Positions 1 through 11,998 of a stretch of 64,000 nucleotides of DNA are shown here, in pieces. This DNA comes from Herbidospora galbida (lineage in GTDB: Bacteria > Actinomycetota > Actinomycetes > Streptosporangiales > Streptosporangiaceae). Both the position numbers and the translations under genes were made by a program. Under the pieces are notes generated by a model. It saw only the letters and a program-made list of their open reading frames with translations, was not told the origin of the DNA and ran no database searches. Within the stretch, counting starts at the first letter, position 1. Every line of letters begins with the position of its first letter. The stretch covers positions 62,001 through 126,000 of the forward strand of contig NZ_SZQA01000011.1 of NCBI RefSeq assembly GCF_005233835.1, written 5' to 3'.

Positions 1-293
1 CCGGGACCGCCGGGCAGCGCCAATCCGACCGACAGGACCAGCACGTTGTGATGGCGGCGGAGAATCATCTGGCAGGACGTCCCCGCCTGGCCCCGCGCCG
101 CGAGCGCGGTCTCGGGACCGGTTGGGACGGCGCCGGACAGGTCGGTCGAGGAGACCTGCGGCGTCTGCGGAAGGATCGGCCCGACCGGCTGATCCAGACC
201 GAACTCGTGAGCCGCGCCGTGCCAAAGGTCGAGCGTGGCCGCGTGATCGGCCAGGTAGGTATGGACCACGAACTGCTGGTCGAGCCTGGTCAT
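1..293 (-). CDS. CATRA-domain protein, N-terminal part (runs off left edge)
   Basis: Only about the first 97 residues are in the window. The product starts MTRLDQQFVVHTYLADHA and contains a W-H-G-A segment and a late LRRHHNVLVLSVGL stretch. From memory of the family this matches the CATRA (caspase/TPR-associated) domain found in actinobacterial conflict systems. The ATG overlaps the TGA of the preceding small gene by four bases (ATGA), which indicates translational coupling. The rest of the gene, and any caspase/TPR partner, would lie to the left of the window. The role is inferred from family and context only. Confidence 0.72.
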   Translation of the reverse strand, partial: MTRLDQQFVVHTYLADHAATLDLWHGAAHEFGLDQPVGPILPQTPQVSSTDLSGAVPTGPETALAARGQAGTSCQMILRRHHNVLVLSVGLALPGGP

Positions 294-583
294 ACTGGCC
301 CGTCCTCCGGGTCCCGCAGGTCCTCGGGCCCGCCAATCCTCATGACCAGCCGTGCCAAGCGTTCCCTCACGACGGGCGGCGCGGGGACGACCGGCGGATC
401 GCCGATCCGGGAGATCCGTTTCGAGTCGATGACCATCCTCAACCCGCCGGCTACTCCCTGGATCTCGCCGGGATCGTCGGCATCCGCGAGAAGCTCGGCG
501 ACGTCCTTCCACACCGTTTCCTTGAGCCGCAGGGTCGGGATCTCCGCCAGCAGTTTTCGCAGGTCGTCAAGACCATCTGACAT
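290..583 (-). CDS. CATRA-associated small protein
   Basis: A 97-residue soluble protein starting MSDGLDDLRKLLAEIPT. A helical first half is followed by a conserved-looking tail with RISRIGDPP and the proline-rich VRERLARLVMRIGG segment, which is characteristic of CATRA-associated small proteins as I remember the family. I chose this start over an upstream ATG because the reading frame before it is the antisense of the neighbouring gene, and because it overlaps the 3' end of the SARP-macro gene by 17 bases. It overlaps the CATRA gene by four bases, so the three genes form one operon. Its molecular role is unknown; it probably acts as a partner of the CATRA protein. Confidence 0.72.
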   Translation of the reverse strand: MSDGLDDLRKLLAEIPTLRLKETVWKDVAELLADADDPGEIQGVAGGLRMVIDSKRISRIGDPPVVPAPPVVRERLARLVMRIGGPEDLRDPEDGPV

Positions 584-1880
584 CGGAACGTCCTCCGTTC
601 GTGAATTCGGGCAGATCGGTGAGGGAGCGGATGAGGTCCAGCGCAATGCGTTCGAGCGCGCCCTGACGAAGCACGATGCGGAGCTCGGTGCTGAACGGCT
701 GCTGCTCGGCGCGGGCCACATAGGACTGGACGATCAATCGGAGCAGCGCGCCGGGGGTTGCGTCGGGGATGCGGGCCAGCCCCGAACCGACCAGCGGGAT
801 GGCCAGTGGTCGCAACTGACCATCGAGACGGGCCGCGTCCCAGAGCCGGTCAAGGCTGTGCCCGAGACCGGCCAGATCCGACTCGGCCAGCAGGTCGTTG
901 GTCATCCTGCTGTACGCGACCGCGAAGACACACCTGTTGCCGGCGCGCAGCGTGGCCACCGTACCGATGGGATAACGTTTGCGCCGGCCGTGCGGCTTGG
1001 CCTGCCGCGACTCCTCGGCGACCGGCGAAATCCGCTTGCGTCTCAGCGCCGCGCTGATCTCCCTTCCGAGACGGGGCGCATCACCGCCGTACAAGCGGTC
1101 GACCAGTTGCCCCTGCACGCTCTGCGCGCTGATCACCACACCGTCGGCGACGGTGTCGAAGGTGTCGGAGAAGCCGACCACCAGATTGGCGTCGTGCTGC
1201 TCGAACAGGTCACCGACTACCACAGTGATCGACGTTTGCAGCGCAGCCGACTCGCGCCGCAGCACTTGACCGGTCCGGCGGCTCGACCGCAGCCGTTCTC
1301 TCAAGCGGTCGAGATCCTCCGCCAGTTCTGCGGATCCGACGCCCTGGATCAGCAGCCCCTCACCAACCTCGATGGCGCGCTCGATCATGTTCAGTTCGGC
1401 GTAGCTGCGGAAGAGGGCCTGTCCGGCTCCGGCGCGCAACTCCTCCAGCCCGCGAGCCGTCGCCGTGGCGAAGGACAGGTCCCGAAGGGGTGGCCCGCCC
1501 CACAGCGCGAGCGCCCTGGTCAGCACGTCGATCGCGTCCATGGGAGCGGCGCGTAGCCCTTCGTGGACGAGGTCGCGGAACTGGAACACGTCGGCGTCAT
1601 AGTCGTCACGGCGAAGTCGGTAACTTCGATCCTCGGTGACGAGGGAATCTCGGACGCCCAGTTCCTGGCGGAGCTCCCTGATCCGCTGATGGACTACGGT
1701 GTACAGCCCATTGTCGGGCCTTCCGCTCCATACCGTACGAAATATATCTTTTGTCATGACCGACTCGCCCTCGGCCAGAACGAGGCACGCCAGGACTTCC
1801 ATCGCTTTCGGCGGGAGACCGACCTCGCGGCCCTCTACCTCCACCCGCAGTCTGCCTAACATCTTTACCAAGATGGACAT
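567..1880 (-). CDS. SARP-type regulator (wHTH + BTAD) fused to a ThsA-like macro domain
   Basis: The product is 437 residues starting MSILVKMLGRLRVEVEGR. Residues about 1-95 form a winged-helix DNA-binding domain (PPKAMEVLACLVLA, then VVHQRIRELRQELG). Residues about 100-195 are a helical BTAD-like region (ALALWGGPPLRDL). After an arginine-rich linker, residues about 215-430 look like the macro domain family known from Thoeris ThsA: a VVVGDLFEQ strand, NLVVGFSDTFDT, and VVISAQSVQGQLVDRLY. No Shine-Dalgarno precedes the ATG, so it may be leaderless or weakly translated. It heads the CATRA operon. A regulator fused to an ADP-ribose-type ligand sensor could couple NAD metabolism to expression, but that is inference. 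Confidence 0.7.
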   Translation of the reverse strand: MSILVKMLGRLRVEVEGREVGLPPKAMEVLACLVLAEGESVMTKDIFRTVWSGRPDNGLYTVVHQRIRELRQELGVRDSLVTEDRSYRLRRDDYDADVFQFRDLVHEGLRAAPMDAIDVLTRALALWGGPPLRDLSFATATARGLEELRAGAGQALFRSYAELNMIERAIEVGEGLLIQGVGSAELAEDLDRLRERLRSSRRTGQVLRRESAALQTSITVVVGDLFEQHDANLVVGFSDTFDTVADGVVISAQSVQGQLVDRLYGGDAPRLGREISAALRRKRISPVAEESRQAKPHGRRKRYPIGTVATLRAGNRCVFAVAYSRMTNDLLAESDLAGLGHSLDRLWDAARLDGQLRPLAIPLVGSGLARIPDATPGALLRLIVQSYVARAEQQPFSTELRIVLRQGALERIALDLIRSLTDLPEFTNGGRSDVRWS

Positions 1881-2180: not shown

Positions 2181-2351
2181 TGGGGGAGTCGATGGCGACA
2201 GGGAAGCGCCTCGGAGTGACGTTCGCCTCGCGCCTCGGACATGAAGGTGGAGATGTCCTCGTATGGCGGGACGGCCTGGGCGAGGAGGCTGGCCGCTCCG
2301 CAGGACTCGGCGAGGTGAAGAGCATGTCGGTGTCCGGGGAGCGCGGGCGAT

Positions 2352-2705
2352 GTGCACGACCGGGTGATGCTCGTACCCCGCCAGGTCGCTTCCTGGTCCG
2401 GCGGGTGAGGACCAGCAGGCACCGGTGCGTTCCTCCCAGAAGCGGTCGCCGTACACCAGACCGAAGCCACGTCGCTCGGCCTCCGTCTGATAGCCGCTGG
2501 CCTGCACGAACAGGCTGAAGCTGGCGTTGGTAACGGGATGGCGATCGAGCAGGAAGGGCTCCATCGAGACCAGATGCCGGGGTGTCTCGTCGGTGAACCA
2601 GGAGCGCGGGTAGGACTGGGCGCGTTCGAGCTGGTCCAGGTGAGCGCTGGGGGAGCCGATCGGCACCTGGCAGGCCGGAATGAAGACCATGTTCTCCTTG
2701 GTCAT
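2352..2705 (-). pseudogene. FGE-sulfatase (SUMF1/EgtB-type) enzyme, N-terminal third only
   Basis: Starting at MTKENMVFIP the frame gives a formylglycine-generating-enzyme-like N-terminus: a MVFIPACQVPIGS strand, an ETPRHLVSMEPFLLDRHPVTN segment, and a GYEHHPVVHI segment. After HPVVHI the sense of the frame is lost and the active-site half is missing. The ATG sits two bases after the stop of the MoaD-like gene, so the two were once one operon. Intact family members are about 250-300 residues, so this is a truncated, non-functional copy. Confidence 0.6.
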
Positions 2706-2707
2706 GG

Positions 2708-2983
2708 TCAGCTTCCTGCCAGCGCCGGAAGCATGATGATCTGGTTGTCGGATGGCAGCAGGGTGTCTAGGCCGTCCAGTTCGCGGATGTCTTCCCCATC
2801 GACGAAGACGTTGACCCAGCTCACCAGCCGGTCCGGTTCCGCCAGCACGCGTTGCCGCAGCGGTGGATAGGTCTCCGCCAGCCAGGTGACGGCTTGGCCG
2901 ACGGTTTCCGCGGCGCACCTCAGCGTCAGGTCTCCGATCCAGGCGGCGGTGCGCCATGCGGACGGGTTCACGATGACGGTCAC
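2708..2983 (-). CDS. MoaD/ThiS-family small ubiquitin-like protein
   Basis: A 91-residue protein with a GTG start, carrying the family segments LTLRCAAETVGQAVTWLAE, WVNVFVDGEDIRELDGLDT and IIMLPALAG. Functional MoaD/ThiS sulfur carriers end in Gly-Gly; this one ends Ala-Gly-Ser, so it may not be adenylated or thiocarboxylated. It starts three bases after the stop of a broken epimerase gene and ends two bases before a truncated FGE-type gene. The order epimerase, MoaD-like, FGE-like suggests remnants of a small biosynthetic or sulfur-transfer operon of which only this ORF is still open. Confidence 0.6.
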   Translation of the reverse strand: MTVIVNPSAWRTAAWIGDLTLRCAAETVGQAVTWLAETYPPLRQRVLAEPDRLVSWVNVFVDGEDIRELDGLDTLLPSDNQIIMLPALAGS

Positions 2984-2986
2984 GGC

Positions 2987-3434
2987 TCAGGCCGCCTGTT
3001 CTTCGCGGGCCCAGGCGATGGTGCGCTCGATGCCCGTCCGCAGCGTCGTCGTGGGGGCCCAGCGCAGAAGCTCGCGGGCCCTGCTGAGGTCGGGGCAGCG
3101 GACGGAGGAGTCCTGCGCGCGACCTCCACCGCGCCGGACCCGGCCGCGTCCACGACCAGGTCGGCGAGTTCGCGAATGGTGATCTCCTCATCCGAGCCCA
3201 CATTCACGGGCCTGCTTCGGCGGAGTCGAGCATGGCGAGAAGGCCCGCGACGAAGCCGTCGATGTAACAGAGGGAGCGGGTCTGGGCGCCGCCGCCGTGC
3301 AACGTCAGTGTTTCCCCGCGAGGGCCTGGCGGATGAAGGCGGGCACGACGCGGCGGTTCTCGGCGTACGTGCCGGGGCCGTAGATGTTGAACGGCCGGAC
3401 GATGCCGCCGGTACCGCTGAGCGCGGCCGAGCAT
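2987..3434 (-). pseudogene. NAD-dependent sugar epimerase/dehydratase, C-terminal half with frameshifts
   Basis: Four stretches of one extended-SDR protein are read successively in shifting minus frames: GGIVRPFNIYGPGTYAENRR and VVPAFIRQALAG, then ETLTLHGGGAQTRSLCYID and GFVAGLLAML, then VNVGSDEEITIRELADLVV, then CPDLSRARELLRWAPTTTL and GIERTIAWAREEQAA. This is the C-terminal half of a nucleotide-sugar epimerase/decarboxylase (UDP-glucuronate decarboxylase or dTDP-glucose dehydratase type). At least three frameshifts are needed, and the NAD-binding half is missing. Confidence 0.65.
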
Positions 3435-3522
3435 AAGCGCCAGGACACCGCGACCGGAGCGGACAGTTCAGCCATGCGCCGGAGGTTCCGGAGCCCACCG
3501 GTGAGCCCGCCCCTGTCCCCCC

Positions 3523-4227
3523 GTGGCTGAAGTTCCCGTCGAGGAGCTGGAGCAGAGCGCCGATGACCTGGTTCGTTACGCCTACCACGAGCTGCAGCGC
3601 CTGGGGCGCAGTGAGGTCGAGGCCCGCGCCTTCTCCTCCTGGTACGGCCGCGCCTTCGGAACGCTTCCTCCCGAGGAATGGCTCTATCCCGCAGAGATTG
3701 TGCAGACCTAGGACCTGTATCGCCCGATGGCGCCGGCCGATGCCGCGGCGGCGGCGGCCGTCCCGGTCTCCACACCACGCGACCGGAGCTCCTTCCTGCT
3801 GATGCACGCCCAGGTCTGGGCATCCCAGGCCGCACCCGACGCCACCGGCTACGCGGCCTGGTACGCCCGCACGCACGCCGATCAGCCGAGCTACGCCTGG
3901 CCCCTGCACACCGAGGCCATCAGGTCCTGGCGGGTGTCGCAGGAGGTTCGCGCGCAGCAGGAGGCTGAGGCCAGGCGCGCCGCTGCGACCTCTGCCGTTC
4001 TCGAGTCGGCGGATCCGTCAGAGGGCGCGGAGATGGCGGGGATCACGATCTCCCACGACGCCGACGGAACGCGGGTCAGCGGGACCAGCAAGGACGACAC
4101 CCAGGTCCGTCACGCGCTGACCAGTGCCGGATTCAAATGGTCGCGCCGCCAGGACTTCTGGTACGTGCCACGCTCCTGGCGCGAGGCCACCCGCGCCGAC
4201 CGTCTGGCCACCTGGACGATCGCGTGA
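3523..4227 (+). pseudogene. Duplicated-repeat hypothetical protein interrupted by an in-frame amber codon
   Basis: A GTG-started frame (MAEVPVEELEQSADDLVRYA) runs into TAG at 3709 and continues in the same frame without any shift for another 172 codons. The two sides carry related units: ARAFSSWYGRAFGTLPPEEW before the stop and GYAAWYARTHADQPSYAWP after it. The C-terminal third (VRHALTSAGFKWSRRQDFWY then VPRSWREATRADRLATW) resembles a domain seen in plasmid and mobile-element proteins of actinomycetes. Either CAG became TAG, or the downstream part is expressed alone from the ATG at 3727. Function is unknown. Confidence 0.5.
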
Positions 4228-4233
4228 TGCCTT

Positions 4234-4512
4234 CACGCCAACGTCACGGCGGCGGGGCCGGCCACCGGTGCTGACCCCGGCCGAGGCGCTTGTCGTGGCA
4301 GTGGGGCAAGTGCTGCTGCGATGCGATCAGGAACGCTACTGGTTACGGACGGCCGCGGCGCGGATCGGTCACCTGTTCCCGCGACCGCCGTCCCAGCCGG
4401 TCTGCAACCGACAGTTGCGGGACCTAGCCGCAGATATGCGGCCGCCTTGTGGATGGCCCGCCAGGTGCCGACCTGGCACGAACCACTCCGGCTGATGGAC
4501 GGCACCCAGGTC
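4234..4512 (+). mobile_element. IS982-like transposase fragment
   Basis: One plus frame reads RRRGRPPVLTPAEALVVAVG then LLRCDQERYWLRTAAARIGH and LFPRPPSQPVCNRQLRDLAA, which is the N-terminus of actinobacterial IS982-type transposases. Near 4437 it must shift frame to continue as ALWMARQVPTWHEPLRLMDG. The sequence stops where the oppositely oriented IS3 fragment begins, so it is truncated at its 3' end and frameshifted. No terminal repeats were seen. Confidence 0.55.
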
Positions 4513-4691
4513 CGCACCGTCTCCGGCGTCTTGACACCCAGTTTGGCCGCGACGGCCCTCATCGCCGCCCACTCGGTCGGGTAGTTCGGGCGCACCTCGG
4601 CGACCATACGAACCGCACGGTCGCGCAGCTCAGAAGGGTAGGGGAACCAGACGTGCCATGACTCGATCCTCTCAAGAAATCGAGCCTCCAT
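4512..4691 (-). mobile_element. IS3-family OrfA (transposase helix-turn-helix) fragment
   Basis: The minus frame from the ATG at 4691 reads YPSELRDRAVRMVAEVRPN then YPTEWAAMRAVAAKLGVKT and PETVRTWV, the typical HTH of IS3-family OrfA proteins. The frame then turns into antisense of the IS982 fragment. OrfB is absent. It is an inert remnant abutting another remnant head to head. Confidence 0.65.
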
Positions 4692-4732
4692 GAGTCCCGG
4701 ACCGCTTCAATCCGCTACGACCACTACCCAAT

Positions 4733-5139: not shown

Positions 5140-8100
5140 TTAGAGGGCGTCGCTGCGGGTGAAGCGGAAGCGGGCCGTGTGGGTCATGCCTCCTTCCCCG
5201 ATGTCCAGGTGCAGGGTCAGGCAGGTGTCGAGGTAGGACCGCGGGGTCCGCCACATCACCTGGTAGGCGCCGGCCCCGAGAATCTGGAGGGGCTCGGCGC
5301 CCTCGGCGGGCACCGGCTCGCCGCCGGTCGGCAGGCCGGTCTGGCAGTTCAGCGGGGTCACGGTCAGGTCGGCCGTCCTGAGGTCGTTGACCGGGGCGCC
5401 GAAGGCGTCGGTCAGCCACCATTTGATCGCGATGCCCTGTCCGGCCTTGGCCGTGTTGACCACGTCGTTGCGCACCGGGGCGGCGAAGCCCGTGAACACG
5501 TAGGCGACGGTGTAGGTCGCGGAGACCGGTGGGGCGGCGTTGCCCGCCCGGTCGACCGCGCCGGCGCACGTCGCGGTGACGGCGCCGACCCCGGTGGGGC
5601 CGGTCAGGGTCAGGGTCGCCGGGGTGGCCACACCGGAGCCCTGGTCGACGGTCGCGCAGCCGGCGGCCGGTACAGCGCGCACCCGGTAGACCGCGCCGTC
5701 GGTCACCCCTGTCACGCTGACCTGCGGCGCGGCGGAGTCGGGGCCGGCCCACTCGACCGGGAGCCGTCGTTCGACGCCCGCGGCCAGGGCGCGGCCGCCG
5801 TGGTCCTGGAGCAGCGGGTCGACGGTGACCGTCACCTCGCCCGACCGGTTCTCGCCGGTGAACCGGAACGCCAGGGCCAGCCGGTCGTCCGAGGGGGAGG
5901 CCGTCGACCACTGACCGCCCACGGGCCGCCCGTCGGAGGTGGTCACGCGGAGCGCCCCGGAGAGGGCCTGCGCGCTGCGGACCGGCTGGGTGAAGGTCAC
6001 CGTGAGGCCGGTCGCGTCGGCCTGCACCTGGGAGACGGCCGCCAGGTCGGCGCGGAGCATGGAGACGTCCACGTCGGTGTGCGGGGGCAGCACCTTGAGC
6101 ACCCGCGACTCGGCCGGCAGGTAGCCGTCCTTGGTGTAGATGACCTTCCACCAACCTTCGGGCACGTCCCAGCCGTAGCGGCCCTCGGCGTTGGTGATCT
6201 GCGGGTTGAGGTCGCCGTAGACGGCCGCGTCCCACGGCTGCCACGGACCGTCCTCGGTGGGCGCGTGCAGGAGGGTCGCGGTGACGCCGGAGATCCGGCG
6301 GTCGGTGAGGCCCTCGTACACGAAACCGGACGGGTCGAAGCGGTAGCCGATGACCGCCTTGGGCCGGGAGACGCGGGTCCAAGGCCGGGCCGACGGCGGC
6401 CAGTCGCAGGTCTCGTCGCTGTTCATCTGGCGGCGCAGCGCGTCGATGTCGTTCATGAGCGGGATTTCCAGGCCCTTGCCGATCGCCCACGTCACCGCCC
6501 ACAGTCCCATGCTGAGGCCGAAGGTGGCGGGGGCGAACACCATGGTTCCGCCGGTGGAGGTCACTTGGTAGACGTCGAGCTGGATGGCGCGCCGCTTGAG
6601 CCGTTCGGCGGCGTTCTTGTAGATCTCGCCCTGGGCGCCGTCCCGGCACTGGGCGGCCATCTCGAGCATTCTGTTGATCTCGTCGTACTTGCCCGGGGCC
6701 TCGGCCAGCGAGTACATGTTGTCGCCGGTGGAGACGCTCACGAACAGGATCTCGAAGCCAAACCTGGCCGGTCCGGTCAGGAATCCGGCGGCACTGAGCG
6801 CCTTGCCCAGTTCGGTGCCCTTCGTCCGGGCGGCCAGGGTGGCGAGGTCGACGATCGCGCTCGCCCCCTCATCGGTGGTCTCGGCCTGGTAGACCTTCAC
6901 GCCGGAGGCGCGCACCGCCGCCTCGCCGGCGGCGTCGGGGCGGTAGCCGGGCAGCGGCTGCACCGTGAGCCGGTAGCGCAGCTGCGCGTCGGGACCCAGT
7001 CGCGGCACGGGCACGGTGAACCGCTGGCTGACGGTGTCGCCGGTGGTCACCGGGTCCTCGACAGCCGCGTCCGCCGGGTCGAAGAGAGCAGTCGAGACGG
7101 GCGCCGGGGGGACGGGCAGTAGCGGCCGGTCCTGGACGGGCGCGTAGGTGATCGAGAGATCGCCGACCTCGGTGGCCTTCGGCAGGATCTTCGCGGCATA
7201 GACGTGGTCCTCGCCGAGCACGGGGGCCAGCGCGAGGTCCAGGGTGCCGAGCCGGGCGCGCGGCTGGGCGACCGGCCCGGTGAAACGGGCCCGGATGGTG
7301 ATCTCGCGGTACGGATAGTGGATCCAGGGGAAGTTCGCGACGCCGTCGACGGGGTGGAAGACCCTGGTCGTGCCCTCCTGGGACATCGTCACCTCTTCCA
7401 CCACGCTGGCGTGCGGGTCGACCACGACGGTGGCGGTCTGCGCGCCCGCCCGCAGGACGTGGCGTGAAACGTCGTGGCCGGCGGTGCCGAGGTCGATGGC
7501 GGCCTGCCAGCGTCCGCCCTCATCGGCTTCGGCTGTCGCGATCACCTTGTCGCCGTCGCGGACGACGACGTCGGCGCCCGCGGGGGCCTCGCCGGTGGCG
7601 GTGAAGCGGCCGGTCCGGCTCGACTCCGGTACTTCCAGGGTGATCGTGTCGACCTGGACTTGCGCCGATCCGAGGAGTTCCGTGGTCTCGCCGGAGGTCA
7701 CCGACAGGGTGAAACGGGCTGTCCCGGAGGTTCGGGCGTACACGTCCAGGGTGCGGGTGGGCGCGGCCGGGAGTGGGATCACCACGGCGCCGTCGACGCG
7801 GCTGAACTCCACGGGCCGGCCGTCGCGAAGCACCCCGTTCTCGGGCACGGTGACCCCCGGCGGGAACTCCAAGCGGGCGCTGCCCGCCTTGGTCCGGTCG
7901 GTGAACTCGATCTGGCCGCGCAGGTGGGCCGTCTCTCCTTCCGGTACGTGCTGTCTCACCGCCCGGAATCCGCTGCCCGAGCCTTCGAGGAGCCCGGCCG
8001 CCGGGCTGAGCCGCAGGTCACCCACGTCGAGCACGCGGCCCTCGTTGATCGTCACCTGGCGGCGTACCGAAAGAGGGGTGTCGTTCGTCCCGCAGGCGGT

Positions 8101-11100
8101 CACGGTCAGCACATAGGTGCCCGGGACGGCGGCGGAGATCTTCAGCGCCGAACCGGAGAAGTAGGCGCGCACCGGCTCGGCCGCGTTCTCCAGCAGGGCG
8201 CAGCCGCGCCCGGTCCGCGGCGCCCCGGAAGGGTCGAGCACCCGTCCGACGACCCGGCCCCTCTCCCGGATCTCCACCGACAGCGGCACGTCGGGAGAGT
8301 CGCCGGTGACCGTTTCCGCGCACGCCCGGGTCAGGCCGACCGCGCCGCCGTCGGCGCAGAAGGTCACCTTCGAGCCGACCGGCAGGTCGAGCGGCGTCTC
8401 GGGGGAGACGGCGAAGATCCGCCTGCCTCCGGCCGTGATGTACGGCTGGTAGTAGCCCGCCGACACAGGGTCGAGTCGCTGCTCGACCCGCTGCCCCTCC
8501 AGCGTGATGGTGGTCAGCTTCGGTCGCACGACAGCGTTGGTCAGGAGGGGGAACACCAGCCGCACGGGCCCGTCCGGATCGACCTCGGCCTCGGGCGACA
8601 CCCGGCCGGCGTGGGTGGCCACCGCGACGGTCGGCGTGCCGCCGAACACCTCGGCCGACCAGGTGCCGTCGGCGGCGGCCTCGACCCGCTGGGAGAGCCC
8701 GTAGCCGTCGATCATCTGGCGCACCGTGACCATTCCCCTCAGGGCACGGCCTTCGGCGTCCTCGGTAGTGCCCCGCACGGTCACCTTGGGCAACGCCTCG
8801 GGCGTGAGGGAGAGGGCGTTGCCGCCGGGCTCCAGGGTGAGGCTGCGGTCGGGGACGGCGGCGAGCCCGCGCGTGGCCCTGAGCTGGGCCGACAACTTGG
8901 CCTTGACGGTGACCTCGGTGGCCGCGTCGAGCGTGCCGAAGCCGACCCGCCCGTCCGCGCCGGTCCGGCCCGAGCGGGGCCCGGTCCGGGTGTCGAGCAC
9001 GACCAGCACGTCGGGCCACCCCACGGTCACCATGAGCGAGGCGGCGGCGTGCGGCGCGACGGCCACGTCCACGACCTGCCCCGAGGCGACCGCGACGGTG
9101 CGCGGCGTGGTGCCGTCGAGACCGTCGGAGCGGCGCGTGGTGACCTTGTGGTCGGCCGCAGGGACGACCGGCACGGCGACCGTGCCGCTCTCGGTGAAGG
9201 TGGTGACCGATCCCGTGTCGGCGCTCTCGCTCCAGACCTGCAGCCGCATCCCGTCGCCGTCCCCGCCGGGCACCGTGGCGGCGACCTTCACCAGGCCGCT
9301 CACCTGGGCGGGCAGGCCCGCGACGGGACGCTCGATCGCGGTGCCGACGCCGTCGGCCAGCCGGAGCGTGGCCGAGACGACCTCCACGGTGCCCTCGGGC
9401 GGCGTCCATCCGCCCTGGTAGCGCCCCGCGGCGGTCTCCGGCAGCGCCACGGTCACCTTCCTGGCCGGATCGGCCGCCGTGCGGACCACCAGGTCGGCGG
9501 TGCCGGTGAAGCCCGCCGCGCCGACCAGCGCGAACGTGGCCTCGCGGCCGAGCGCCACCCAGCCGCCCACGCGGGGGAGGCTGGCGGCGGCCTCGGTGAC
9601 GGCCAGCTTGTCGACGCGCACCTGGGCGGCCCGCGTGTACGGGGCCTCCCCGCCCGCGCGCAGAGCCGCGACCGTGTAGGTGTAGCCGGTGTCGGCGGCG
9701 ACCTTCGTGTCCTCGTACGAGGTCACGTCCGCCCCCACATCGGCCAGCTTCACCCCGTCCCGGAGCACTCGGTAGCCGGTGGCGTCGGTGCGCTCCCACT
9801 GCAGGCGCACCCGGGCGCCCGGCCCGGCGAGCGCCGATAGCGGGGCCTCACCGGGAGGCAGGTCCTCCCGCAGCGTGACGCTTCTGGTCAGCGGGGCGGA
9901 GGCGCGGCCTGCGGAGTCCCGGGCGACGACCGCGATCTCGACGGTCGCGCCGGGGGTGAGGTCCGACAGCACGGTCTGCGTGGTGGTCACGGTCGTGACC
10001 CTGGCGCCGTCGACGCTCACGTCGTATGTGGCGGCCGTCGCGCCGGCGGCGGGCCACGACGCGGCGACGCTGGTCGTACCGGGCGTGGCCGTCAGTTCGG
10101 CGTCTTCCGGCCAGGCAGGCGGGGGCGTGTCAGACGGCACGGCCTTGTACAGGCGGGAGGGCTGCGGCTCGTCGGTCCGGGGGGCCACGAAGGCCGAACT
10201 GGCGGACAGGAAGGCCAGCGCCGAGCCGGTCGCGTCGATGTCGAACGAGTGCACCGCGTCCGGGAACAGCACGGTCTCACCGGGGAGCGAGTCGGCGATC
10301 CGGCCGTCCAGGCCGGGAGACGCCAGCACGGGAGCCCGGCCGGCCTGCGCCGCCTGGGTCCACAGCGCGCCGGAGCGGAGGAATGCGACCGTCCCGCCGT
10401 CCGCGCTCAGCCGGGCGGCGGTGGGCAGGTCGCCGACATCGAACGGCAGGTCGCCCGAGGCATAGGGGGCCGTCGCGGAGGCGTCCAGCGTCACGTCGGC
10501 CCCTCCGGCGAGGTCGGCCACGACCACGCCCTCGCCCAGGCCGCTGAACGCGGTCCGGCGTCCGGCGCGGTCGAGGTGGGGCGACCACGCCGCCGCCTGC
10601 GCCGAGGTCAGCGGGCGCTCGCCCGGCAGCCGCTCACCCGAGGCGGCGTCGAAGCGCAGCAGCACGGGCTCGTCGTCGCGCCGGACGTGCACGGCGAGCA
10701 CCTTCCCGTCACCCGACAGGGCGGTGCCGCGCGTCTGCGATCCGGCCAGCCCGACGACGCGGACGGCGGGGGCGGCGTCGGACAGCGTGGCGAGCAGCAC
10801 GCCGGGCGGGGTCCGCAGGCCCACGGCCAGCCGGGCGCCGTCCTCGCTCATCGCCAGATCGCCCAGGCGCAGGCCCGCGTCCGCGTCGGGGACGGGCACC
10901 CACGTGGTGGCGTCCAGGAGCCGGTCGCGGACGAAGATCGCCTCGCGGGTGCCCGGATCGGCCTCGGGCGGCAGGCCCAGCTCTGCGGCGTCCGCGCCCC
11001 GGGCCACGAAGGCGACCTTCCGGCCGTCGGCGCTGATCGCGGCGTCGACCACCTGGGAGAGCGGCTGCCCGTCGAGGCCGAGGCCGACGACCTCGCCGGT

Positions 11101-11346
11101 GGGGCTCGCCACCAGGACGTCGTTCGTGGACAGGTGCAGGGCGGTGTTCCCGTCGGCCGACAACGCGAGCGGGCCGGCGTAGAACTGGAGGTCGGGCACC
11201 TCGTCGAGGGCGTCTACTTGGTAGGCGCGCGGCAGCGGATCGGCCGCGGCCGCCGCCAGCCCGGCCGACGGCACCACGGCGGTCTCCGCCAGAAGGCTGA
11301 GGGCCACCGTCGCGGCGATCGCGACGGAACGTAAGGGTCTTCGCAC
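5140..11346 (-). CDS. Giant secreted multidomain protein (beta-propeller, Fn3, Ig/carboxypeptidase-regulatory-like, PxKF-like)
   Basis: A 2068-residue protein. The GTG start is supported by AAGGAG five bases upstream and by an immediate signal peptide (VRRPLRSVAIAATVALSL...AGLAAAAADP). Residues about 40-380 show WD40/TolB-like repeats (LALSADGNTALHL, AAISADGRKVAFVARG). Two fibronectin type III domains follow (about 415-485 and 495-575). Then come many beta-sandwich segments of carboxypeptidase-regulatory/Ig type (VVGRVLDPSGAPRTGRGCAL, ITNAEGRYGWDVPEGWWKV). A helical, partly hydrophobic insert lies at about 1485-1650, and the end resembles a PxKF domain (GIAIKWWLTDAFGAPV). No LPXTG or C-terminal membrane anchor is visible. 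It is probably extracellular; binding partner or substrate is unknown. It is the only intact gene between two belts of mobile debris. Confidence 0.85.
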   Translation of the reverse strand: MRRPLRSVAIAATVALSLLAETAVVPSAGLAAAAADPLPRAYQVDALDEVPDLQFYAGPLALSADGNTALHLSTNDVLVASPTGEVVGLGLDGQPLSQVVDAAISADGRKVAFVARGADAAELGLPPEADPGTREAIFVRDRLLDATTWVPVPDADAGLRLGDLAMSEDGARLAVGLRTPPGVLLATLSDAAPAVRVVGLAGSQTRGTALSGDGKVLAVHVRRDDEPVLLRFDAASGERLPGERPLTSAQAAAWSPHLDRAGRRTAFSGLGEGVVVADLAGGADVTLDASATAPYASGDLPFDVGDLPTAARLSADGGTVAFLRSGALWTQAAQAGRAPVLASPGLDGRIADSLPGETVLFPDAVHSFDIDATGSALAFLSASSAFVAPRTDEPQPSRLYKAVPSDTPPPAWPEDAELTATPGTTSVAASWPAAGATAATYDVSVDGARVTTVTTTQTVLSDLTPGATVEIAVVARDSAGRASAPLTRSVTLREDLPPGEAPLSALAGPGARVRLQWERTDATGYRVLRDGVKLADVGADVTSYEDTKVAADTGYTYTVAALRAGGEAPYTRAAQVRVDKLAVTEAAASLPRVGGWVALGREATFALVGAAGFTGTADLVVRTAADPARKVTVALPETAAGRYQGGWTPPEGTVEVVSATLRLADGVGTAIERPVAGLPAQVSGLVKVAATVPGGDGDGMRLQVWSESADTGSVTTFTESGTVAVPVVPAADHKVTTRRSDGLDGTTPRTVAVASGQVVDVAVAPHAAASLMVTVGWPDVLVVLDTRTGPRSGRTGADGRVGFGTLDAATEVTVKAKLSAQLRATRGLAAVPDRSLTLEPGGNALSLTPEALPKVTVRGTTEDAEGRALRGMVTVRQMIDGYGLSQRVEAAADGTWSAEVFGGTPTVAVATHAGRVSPEAEVDPDGPVRLVFPLLTNAVVRPKLTTITLEGQRVEQRLDPVSAGYYQPYITAGGRRIFAVSPETPLDLPVGSKVTFCADGGAVGLTRACAETVTGDSPDVPLSVEIRERGRVVGRVLDPSGAPRTGRGCALLENAAEPVRAYFSGSALKISAAVPGTYVLTVTACGTNDTPLSVRRQVTINEGRVLDVGDLRLSPAAGLLEGSGSGFRAVRQHVPEGETAHLRGQIEFTDRTKAGSARLEFPPGVTVPENGVLRDGRPVEFSRVDGAVVIPLPAAPTRTLDVYARTSGTARFTLSVTSGETTELLGSAQVQVDTITLEVPESSRTGRFTATGEAPAGADVVVRDGDKVIATAEADEGGRWQAAIDLGTAGHDVSRHVLRAGAQTATVVVDPHASVVEEVTMSQEGTTRVFHPVDGVANFPWIHYPYREITIRARFTGPVAQPRARLGTLDLALAPVLGEDHVYAAKILPKATEVGDLSITYAPVQDRPLLPVPPAPVSTALFDPADAAVEDPVTTGDTVSQRFTVPVPRLGPDAQLRYRLTVQPLPGYRPDAAGEAAVRASGVKVYQAETTDEGASAIVDLATLAARTKGTELGKALSAAGFLTGPARFGFEILFVSVSTGDNMYSLAEAPGKYDEINRMLEMAAQCRDGAQGEIYKNAAERLKRRAIQLDVYQVTSTGGTMVFAPATFGLSMGLWAVTWAIGKGLEIPLMNDIDALRRQMNSDETCDWPPSARPWTRVSRPKAVIGYRFDPSGFVYEGLTDRRISGVTATLLHAPTEDGPWQPWDAAVYGDLNPQITNAEGRYGWDVPEGWWKVIYTKDGYLPAESRVLKVLPPHTDVDVSMLRADLAAVSQVQADATGLTVTFTQPVRSAQALSGALRVTTSDGRPVGGQWSTASPSDDRLALAFRFTGENRSGEVTVTVDPLLQDHGGRALAAGVERRLPVEWAGPDSAAPQVSVTGVTDGAVYRVRAVPAAGCATVDQGSGVATPATLTLTGPTGVGAVTATCAGAVDRAGNAAPPVSATYTVAYVFTGFAAPVRNDVVNTAKAGQGIAIKWWLTDAFGAPVNDLRTADLTVTPLNCQTGLPTGGEPVPAEGAEPLQILGAGAYQVMWRTPRSYLDTCLTLHLDIGEGGMTHTARFRFTRSDAL

Positions 11347-11676
11347 GGTAACTCCTTGATCGGTCGAACCGTGCGAGAGTGCCAGGACAGGCTTGGCACG
11401 ACTTTGGTGCCGACTTGGTCTTTGCCGCCCGTTGGAGGAGATCTCCCGGCTCCTCAGTGAGCAGGTGCCATCGGCGGCGGGATCGAGGGCGTCAACTGCG
11501 ACGGCTCCGCCGCCACCCCGCCCGGCGGCCTTTCCGCGCCGGTCAGGACCACCCGGACGGCGAACCTTCGGCAGCGTCACCAAATAGACGAATGCGAGGC
11601 CGGTGTCCGGTGGCGCCGGATCGTTCGTCACCGGGAAGGACCGCTGACCTGGCATTGCCGGAAGCCTTCGCCGAGG
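11347..11676. other. Non-coding stretch upstream of the giant gene
   Basis: About 330 bases with no frame I can recognise on either strand. It must contain the promoter of the giant secreted-protein gene (its ribosome site is at 11351-11356), but no clear -35/-10 was identified. The open minus frame running through it has no family resemblance and is probably by chance. Confidence 0.5.
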
Positions 11677-11892
11677 GTGTCCGGATCTGTGGCGCCTCTG
11701 GTGGTGACCGCAGGCCAGCGCGGGGACGCACCTCAGTTCATCCCCGTCCTGACCGCCATCAAGGTTGCCCGCCCCAGAACCTGGACGCCTCGCACCCGGC
11801 CGGAGGTGGTCCGGGCGGACAAGGCTTACTCCTCCCGCGCCATTCGCGCGCACTTGTGTGCCCGGAGGATCAATGTCACGATCCCTGACCCA
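11677..11892 (+). mobile_element. IS5-family transposase, middle fragment
   Basis: The plus frame reads LVVTAGQRGDAPQFIPVLTA then RTRPEVVRADKAYSSRAIRA and HLCARRINVTIPDPA. This is the DDE-domain core of IS5-family transposases, including the DKAYSSRAIR motif around the second catalytic Asp. It stops where the right copy of the 106-bp inverted repeat begins. The N-terminus is missing, and a C-terminal-like piece is found on the opposite strand at about 4740-4830. Confidence 0.7.
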
Positions 11893-11998
11893 GCACACGG
11901 TTCAGCCAGACCCGCGCATCCCGTCGACGGCGGAGGCACGCACGTCCTCGACAACGTGATGACGCCGAGCCCGCCATCGAGAAGGCGCTGCACGCCGC
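11893..11998 (-). repeat. Inverted repeat, right copy (106 bp)
   Basis: Reverse complement of 4968-5073 with two mismatches seen. It joins the IS5 middle fragment on one side to an SDR remnant on the other. See the left copy for the arrangement. Confidence 0.85.

Follow-up and report, generated by a model that had tools for sequence, protein, structure and literature searches.

A SARP-macro protein at the head of a CATRA-TIR operon in Herbidospora galbida: a candidate transcription-factor receptor for Thoeris-like signalling

Introduction

What does a transcription factor do when its sensor half is a macro domain of the ThsA type, and when its gene stands at the head of a conflict operon? The question is raised by the first 1880 nucleotides of a 64,000-nucleotide stretch of the Herbidospora galbida genome (8.3 Mb), G000:C12:62001-126000, which is called the window here. 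Three overlapping genes on its minus strand encode a SARP-type protein with a C-terminal ThsA-type macro domain (SARP-macro), a CATRA-associated small protein (CATASP) and the beginning of a CATRA protein. CATRA denotes the caspase and TPR repeat-associated ternary conflict system, for which PMC8195603, in the part dealing with it, refers to Kaur et al. 2020 and to Burroughs & Aravind 2020; systems of this kind are named in sections of both PMC8195603 and PMC12657218.

A preliminary description of the window had stated that this combination was not known as a described system. That statement has to be divided. CATRA systems are already described, and Thoeris and SARPs are likewise known; the SARP-macro receptor and its regulon remain candidates for novelty, possibly with a new logic. 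No SARP-macro fusion was named in the titles or opening abstract lines of the matches listed in targeted literature searches, the founding CATRA paper (Burroughs & Aravind 2020) lying outside their coverage. The same description had proposed a coupling of transcriptional control with nucleotide sensing in one operon. The sequence analysis supports this proposal by indirect evidence, and the case is stronger than before because the CATRA protein carries a TIR domain, ThsA-type macro genes track such CATRA-TIR proteins, and an operator-like repeat of SARP style recurs.

With moderate confidence, we read the locus as a Thoeris-like signalling operon in which the receptor would be a transcription factor controlling exchangeable executioner arms. 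The grounds observed are the gene content, the gene overlaps, the association of macro genes with CATRA-TIR and the near-confinement of the repeat to SARP-macro loci, from which messenger production, binding by the macro domain, activation by the SARP part and a role in defence are inferred. To our knowledge, bacterial TIR pathways either deplete NAD+ or deliver a messenger directly to an effector; this view draws in part on passages of PMC11204291 and PMC12847820. If the reading is true, a gene-expression step, with amplification and a choice of effector, would enter bacterial TIR immunity.

Results

A SARP-macro gene heads the CATRA-TIR operon

The SARP-macro gene is the first of the operon (window 567..1880, minus strand; ATG start, 437 amino acids). 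Its product begins with an OmpR-type winged helix (Trans_reg_C, residues 17-76, window 1653..1832 on the minus strand, E=4.7e-7) followed by a BTAD domain (residues 97-177, window 1350..1592, minus strand, E=2e-7), both above the Pfam cut-off and in the order found in SARPs. The C-terminal half holds a ThsA-type macro domain (residues 218-405, window 666..1229, minus strand), which matches all 183 of the 183 positions of the ThsA_Macro profile PF20016 with E=1e-52; the ThsA model of PADLOC matches as well (5.4e-57). At E<=0.001 the solved relatives of the macro half are four ThsA chains, 8v6q (the best, 1.3e-11), 9uuz, 8r66 and 8v6s, and the sole solved relative of the N-terminal half is EmbR (2fez, 6.4e-5). 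No hydrophobic 19-residue window scoring above 1.6 precedes the macro domain in this protein; the winged helix and BTAD domain stand there instead of a transmembrane output. A predicted structure of the SARP-macro, computed together with one relative, was of low confidence (mean pLDDT 53.9, pTM 0.47) and was not used.

The CATASP gene (window 290..583, minus strand, 97 amino acids; PF20271, 3e-11) begins within the end of the SARP-macro gene, with an overlap of 17 nt, and the CATRA gene, whose start lies at window 1..293 (minus strand), overlaps CATASP by the 4 nt of an ATGA. The three genes that the preliminary description had drawn from position 1880 leftward to position 1 are thus borne out in both arrangement and domain content. 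Because of these overlaps, their products are probably translated together.

Beyond the window edge the operon was followed in L003, the DNA extending to the left (window x = L003 x+16000). The whole CATRA gene occupies L003 16293..14788 on the minus strand, ending at G000:C12:60788, and encodes 501 amino acids with CATRA-N (PF20269, 1.8e-37), CATRA-C (PF20270, 5e-19) and, in the part beyond the window, a C-terminal TIR domain of the CAP12-PCTIR family (PF10137, 2.8e-25). All 26 aligned TIR domains, 22 from CATRA proteins and four free-standing, carry the motif RPNV..E, and we take its glutamate to be the catalytic residue of the TIR domain. The four free-standing TIR proteins, detected with the model of the CATRA TIR domain, are encoded next to macro genes (loci L043, L065, L066 and L067). 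For protein P0003 no relative was found among solved structures.

The leftward extension also yielded the caspase/TPR gene that the preliminary description had suggested looking for. After a gap of 95 bp, a gene of 1167 codons at L003 14692..11189 (C12:60692..57189, minus strand) encodes TPRs and a CHAT domain (PF12770, above cut-off, 9.5e-46); a TPR-S match to this protein, at 25.2 bits, falls below the cut-off of 27.6. By eye, the CHAT protein shows HLACHGH and SACNT, presumably of the type of the His and Cys motifs of the caspase-like fold. All parts of a CATRA system, namely CATRA-N, CATRA-C, CATASP and CHAT, are therefore present, each above its cut-off.

ThsA-type macro genes accompany CATRA proteins with TIR domains

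The wider occurrence of these genes was surveyed in 345 genomes of the order, with 396 genomes of the phylum as a separate sample. In the order, PF20016 was found in 38 of 345 genomes at 42 places and PF20269 in 42 of 345, 37 of them above cut-off, in a genome search for CATRA-N that scored at most 8 candidates per genome. The stretches fetched for comparison took in every one of the 42 macro places and all 45 CATRA loci above cut-off, omitting five CATRA places below it. They mostly extend up to about 10 kb to each side, with one side reaching up to 14 kb (L045) or 18 kb (L054) and some cut by contig ends, and their domains were mapped with profile models of our own, seeded with proteins of the source genome, which far relatives may escape. 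SARP-macro genes numbered 18, of which 17 came from the order and one from Parafrankia (L005), the latter being the single relative found when genome contigs were searched with P0001. The phylum sample was rejected as a replicate, being too poor in both families (macro in 4 of 396 genomes, CATRA in 3 of 396).

A genome survey for SARP-macro genes beside CATRA had been proposed, and its outcome agrees with the proposal. CATASP is present in 16 and CATRA in 13 of the 18 SARP-macro stretches, and all 13 of those that hold CATRA include a CATRA-TIR. The next gene on the SARP-macro strand is CATASP in 10/18 loci and CATRA in 2/18. Among the 45 CATRA genes, 22 encode a TIR domain and 23 do not. A ThsA-type macro gene lies within 10 kb of 14 of the 22 CATRA-TIR genes but of only one of the 23 others (Fisher p=2.3e-5), and the SARP-macro taken alone gives 12/22 against 1/23 (Fisher 2.3e-4). 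The single CATRA without TIR near a macro gene, in L058, is a tandem neighbour of a CATRA-TIR that has its own SARP-macro. When 20 of the 23 CATRAs without TIR were scanned with Pfam, PNP_UDP_1 was named in three, GT4-conflict in one and only CATRA in 16; no TIR domain was found in these 20 proteins, which our own TIR model had scored as negative. Next to the CATRA-TIR genes of L064 and L069, transmembrane (TM) macro proteins replace the SARP-macro.

Genes of defence tend to cluster, and SARP-macro and CATRA might adjoin merely for that reason. In the order each family is scattered patchily, and the phylum sample has few examples of either, as a coincidence of this kind would allow. The regular position of CATASP or CATRA directly behind the SARP-macro on its strand, and the preference of SARP-macro for TIR-bearing CATRAs, speak for a specific partnership, and we give coincidence very little weight. 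None of the three findings that the preliminary description had named as fatal to its proposal, that is, a C-terminal half unlike macro domains, small products unrelated to CATRA families, or random co-occurrence, was encountered in the genomes examined.

A second explanation accepts the partnership and assigns it another role: the macro domain would sense the cellular NAD+/ADP-ribose state, the SARP-macro, as a housekeeping regulator, would set the operon's basal expression, and the TIR domain would be a killing NADase. In a passage of PMC8195603, GT4 domains are put in 'the effector position' of CATRA systems, and by analogy the TIR domain could be an effector too. Moreover, 8 of the 22 CATRA-TIR genes lack a macro neighbour within 10 kb. 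These comprise five close orthologues from one genus (one of them in contig C73 of the source genome), L093, L045 and L092. Under the 10-kb rule the last two count as macro-less, but macro genes do lie farther out, at distances of 10.2 and 11.3 kb in L045 and of 13.3 kb in L092; both contigs carry a SARP-macro, 11 kb (L045) and 13 kb (L092) from the CATRA-TIR gene. Against such a general sensor stand the observations that macro genes track TIR rather than other C-terminal domains of CATRA, and that TM-macros take the place of SARP-macros beside CATRA-TIR in L064 and L069. We consider this explanation unlikely, though it is the strongest of the alternatives to the signalling operon.

Two of the loci mentioned here have further features. 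The source genome encodes a second CATRA-TIR in L104 (G000:C73), with no macro gene in the fetched stretch, and a third CATRA, without TIR, in L119 (G000:C47); cross-talk of these CATRAs with the SARP-macro is possible. At L093:8350-11214 a CATRA-TIR gene and CATASP are accompanied by a lone E2-like gene, and the genome concerned, G435, also has a SARP-macro and a full E2-containing cassette (see below) on another contig (L048), as if the locus had been split.

An operator-like repeat enriched at SARP-macro loci

The sequence GCTTCC, repeated at a period of 11 bp, was first spotted by eye upstream of SARP-macro genes and then counted on both strands of the 18 SARP-macro stretches (334 kb) and the 53 other stretches (1009 kb). 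Allowing up to one mismatch, the SARP-macro stretches contain 28 GCTTCC pairs at period 11 and at most 11 at each remaining period between 6 and 27. Among the 53 comparison stretches period 11 does not stand out, with 18 pairs compared with 18 at period 9 and 17 at period 27. The exact form GCTTCC-N5-GCTTCC occurs as 17 pairs in 11 of the 18 SARP-macro loci and as one pair in the 53 others (Fisher test on loci, 1.3e-7; 1.8e-6 without the near-copies L048 and L052). The lone outside pair is in L092, which shares a contig with the SARP-macro of G480 and partly overlaps L059. In the exhaustive scan that gave these exact counts, which took in every 6-mer made up of three or more different letters, with spacings of 6-33, GCTTCC at 11 ranked second by locus count, and it is the only one of the best 25 found in fewer than four other loci. 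The top candidate, CGGCGA at spacing 30 (13 loci), was rejected, as it is also present in 19 of the 53 others. An earlier type of scan, for periodic 7-mers in 370-bp upstream stretches, was noisy and was set aside: its peak excess, at period 9, was 41 where shuffled sequence averaged 13.6, with 25 against 10.9 at period 11.

A relaxed form, [GC]CTTC[CA]-N5-[GC]CTTC[CA], gives 18 sites in 12/18 SARP-macro loci, the source genome included, and two sites in the 53 others (L092 and L111). All 18 sites are intergenic by our own gene calls with a tolerance of 10 bp, in sequence of which 11.4% is intergenic, and they lie 15-133 bp ahead of the nearest gene start. The repeat precedes the SARP-macro gene in L044 and L049 (in L049 there is a triple repeat) and, at greater distance, in L047; CATASP-CATRA in L045 (with TIR) and L058 (the CATRA without TIR); a peptide cassette described below in L048 and L050-L052; and a module of small genes and an AAA gene in L057. 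No relaxed repeat was found upstream of the window's own SARP-macro gene. In the source genome it precedes the TPR-CHAT gene, as two copies of TCTGAAG at period 11 (L003 14792-14786 and 14781-14775). The first copy spans the CATRA stop codon, so that the repeat enters the 95-bp gap, and 7 nt further on there is a TAACTT.

SARP sites are described, in the relevant part of PMC10936776, as direct repeats with a period of 11 or 22 bp whose 3′ repeat lies 8 bp from the -10 element. By sequence, GCTTCC-N5-GCTTCC has this operator layout. Of the 71 stretches, those without a SARP-macro almost all lack the repeat, which also argues against a chance meeting of defence genes.

The same positions could serve a repressor. 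The ligand-free SARP-macro would then bind the repeats and hold toxic arms off until the messenger releases it. Some of the sites, at 15-133 bp ahead of the nearest gene start, are near enough to block transcription, and the sequence gives no sign of regulation either way. SARP-family proteins are described as activators in the passages of PMC10936776 that treat them, however, and the layout of the repeat in the source genome, with a -10-like hexamer downstream, fits activation. We give a repressor little credence. In the proposed operon the sign of regulation would be activation, by analogy with the SARP family.

The putative executioner arms beside the core vary

The genes that would be controlled differ between loci. 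A CHAT match is present in 12/18 SARP-macro stretches, in L046 across two frames. Five of the 18 contain a four-gene cassette encoding a peptide of 45-53 amino acids, an E2, an E1 and a JAB protein (L050:12406-14825, L051:6183-8762, L052:6233-8804, L048:10949-13353 and L059:11063-13598), and within the fetched set the complete cassette is confined to SARP-macro loci. In L050 the SARP-macro, CATASP, CATRA-TIR, peptide, E2, E1 and JAB genes follow one another in a row on a single strand, and in L051 and L052 the cassette precedes the core genes. Matches to ThiF support the E1 proteins (5e-32 to 9e-29 for the three that were scanned). Pfam matches of E2 and JAB are weak, the E2 of L050 being clear in PADLOC (3.1e-12). 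On clustering, the peptide, E1 and JAB families were made up solely of proteins from SARP-macro loci of the fetched set and were absent from the other stretches, E2 occurring also in L093 and AAA also in L104; a search with a single E1 sequence also matched L110, weakly (2.9e-6).

We take the bacterial cassettes with E1, E2 and JAB genes to be those of the BIL/Bub type, for which PADLOC has E1, E2 and JAB models. The cassettes of the five SARP-macro loci resemble these in their ThiF-type E1, E2 and JAB genes and differ in that the putative modifier is a peptide of 45-53 residues. The peptides have in common G-V-S-[MI]-H-D-[AG]-K-G-D followed by 1-7 residues, and it is our guess that JAB cuts the peptide after the glycine.

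An AAA ATPase is encoded in five of the 18 stretches (L053, L054 and L056-L058), L056-L058 also having small genes of common families, and a three-gene set without a named family is present in L046, L047 and L059.

The macro domain and its relatives

The ligand pocket was compared in an alignment that placed EcThsA beside the 18 SARP-macros and a further 26 macro domains, one of them a fragment, from the fetched loci, with the pocket residues, among them the adenine contact D83, taken from the corresponding part of PMC11204291. The window protein keeps D83, D100, S175, S217 and G218, and has changes at N114, T220, H259 and K262. D83 is kept in 18/18 SARP-macros, and D100 in 16/18, with E in the other two.

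In a tree of 44 macro rows, a branch with weak support (79/69) has all 18 SARP-macros to one side. The rows nearest to them, within a 22-row group supported at 83/88, are L064, L069, L045_4230 and L061. L064, L069 and L045_4230 are TM-macros, with a hydrophobic N-terminal stretch, from loci carrying CATRA-TIR, and the macro protein of L064 matches the PADLOC ThsA model along its length. The fourth, at L061:820-2748, is an EAD1 domain fused to a ThsA-type macro, from another actinobacterial family, which would be a third output or adaptor type for the ThsA-type receptor.

Proposed signalling and its weighing

The proposed pathway would run as follows. CATRA and CATASP, as their family suggests, would restrain the TIR domain and respond to invasion. 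The TIR domain, in which the motif glutamate is kept, would by homology make an ADP-ribose-type messenger from NAD+, and the ThsA-type domain of the SARP-macro would bind it, as its fold, its pocket and the association with CATRA-TIR suggest. Self-association induced by the ligand would place SARP domains on the 11-bp-period repeats ahead of executioner genes, where the bound protein would recruit RNA polymerase. In the source genome the target would be the TPR-CHAT caspase-like protease. In relatives it would be the peptide-E2-E1-JAB conjugation cassette or the AAA-ATPase module, and also the CATASP-CATRA genes themselves, which would amplify the response. A feed-forward switch, in which the TIR domain makes the alarm, the macro domain reads it and the arms are expressed, is the simplest logic because the SARP-macro heads the operon of the signal maker and the repeat precedes executioner genes. 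Both the output domain and the executioner look exchangeable from gene content, the former because CATRA-TIR loci also carry TM-macros, with a membrane-type output as in type II Thoeris.

Several results weigh against this pathway. The stretches of L093 and of five CATRA-TIR orthologues from a single genus contain no macro gene, so the TIR domain can do without a SARP-macro receptor, and it may be an effector rather than a signal maker. Conversely, 5/18 SARP-macro stretches lack CATRA (L005, L044, L048, L056 and L059, the stretches of L005 and L056 being truncated at contig ends). In the CATRA tree TIR changes three times. L054, L053 and L064/L069 lie outside the main TIR clade and yet have macros, whereas the CATRAs next to them in the tree, whose ends are PNP, GT4 or unnamed, do not, but gain or loss of TIR provides one independent pair on starred branches and three on all. 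The association of macro with CATRA-TIR genes is thus not phylogenetically independent; independent coupling is suggestive and not proven because only one pair rests on starred branches, and with so few independent changes the TIR domain could be a mere lineage marker. As to the repeat, 6/18 loci have neither the exact nor the relaxed form (L005, L046, L053, L054, L056 and L059), one-mismatch GCTTCC pairs existing in L056 and L059. Over 30 whole genomes the exact repeat shows no excess, with 60 occurrences against 69 of the reversed control (split by the presence of SARP-macro, 43 against 27 in the 15 genomes that have it and 17 against 42 in the 15 that do not), nor does the relaxed form in the source genome (11 against 13). 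Of the 43, 17 belong to SARP-macro stretches. Since the genome-wide scans give no excess over control, the SARP-macro looks like a regulator local to its own cluster, and we claim no wider regulon. In the pocket, N114 is lost in 17/18 SARP-macros (Q in 17/18), T220 is A or S in 18/18 and K262 is lost in 18/18, changes mostly seen likewise in the other macros of the fetched loci; H259 is kept in 1/18 SARP-macros against 11/26 of the others. By this last difference the SARP-macro pocket is close to, but not the same as, that of the local TM-macros.

The proposed operon can be set beside four known systems. It shares with type II Thoeris (a ThsB TIR protein and a TM-macro ThsA) the macro family PF20016 near a TIR domain encoded alongside, here fused to CATRA and predicted to make the signal. 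It differs in having a SARP DNA-binding and activation part where ThsA has a transmembrane part, and in the fusion of TIR to CATRA, in company with CATASP and a TPR-CHAT protein. As in the CATRA ternary system, CATRA-N, CATRA-C, CATASP and a TPR-CHAT gene are present, with TIR behind CATRA-C; the SARP-macro at the head and the operator-like repeat would set it apart from that system. Like SARP regulators of the AfsR and EmbR type, the protein combines a winged helix with BTAD, and 11-bp direct repeats stand upstream of its likely targets. These, however, are conflict genes rather than an antibiotic cluster, and the C-terminal sensor is a ThsA macro, in contrast to the NOD/TPR part of AfsR mentioned in PMC10936776. 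Type IV Thoeris, in the account given in part of PMC12847820, also joins TIR and a caspase-like protease in one locus, but there the messenger activates the protease directly, whereas here a transcription factor with a messenger-receptor fold would stand between them.

The fuller statement is more tentative, and we judge it slightly less probable than not: that a messenger of the TIR/ADP-ribose kind is the inducer, read by a macro-domain activator that switches a small regulon (CHAT, a ubiquitin-like cassette with a modifier of 45-53 residues, AAA-ATPase) through its own 11-bp-period operator. Such a system would parallel, in bacteria, those immune pathways in which a nucleotide alarm leads to gene expression. 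The SARP-macro system offers a named operator, a named receptor and a named enzyme. The repeat would let the local regulon be read from sequence, and it would link the ubiquitin-like cassette and the caspase-like protease to one switch.

Neighbouring genes

Two orphan genes on the minus strand follow the TPR-CHAT gene closely, P0006 (L003 11164..10598) and, close behind it, P0005 (L003 10593..9811), so that all genes from the SARP-macro through P0005 are on the same strand. Neither product has a match in Pfam or PADLOC; the N-terminus of P0005 resembles a signal peptide by eye.

On the other side, immediately upstream of the SARP-macro, the minus strand encodes an FGE-sulfatase domain fragment (window 2334-2732, 2.2e-15) and a ThiS-family small protein (window 2708-2983, 1.7e-5). 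FGS domains have been proposed, in a passage of PMC8195603, as parts that recognise invaders. The broken-looking frames at about window 3000-4700 resemble, by eye, a sugar-nucleotide epimerase and the end of an IS-type transposase, and would suit a decayed mobile region adjoining the operon. Further upstream, an open frame of 2252 residues (window 5140-11898, minus strand) looks by eye like a secreted multi-domain repeat protein.

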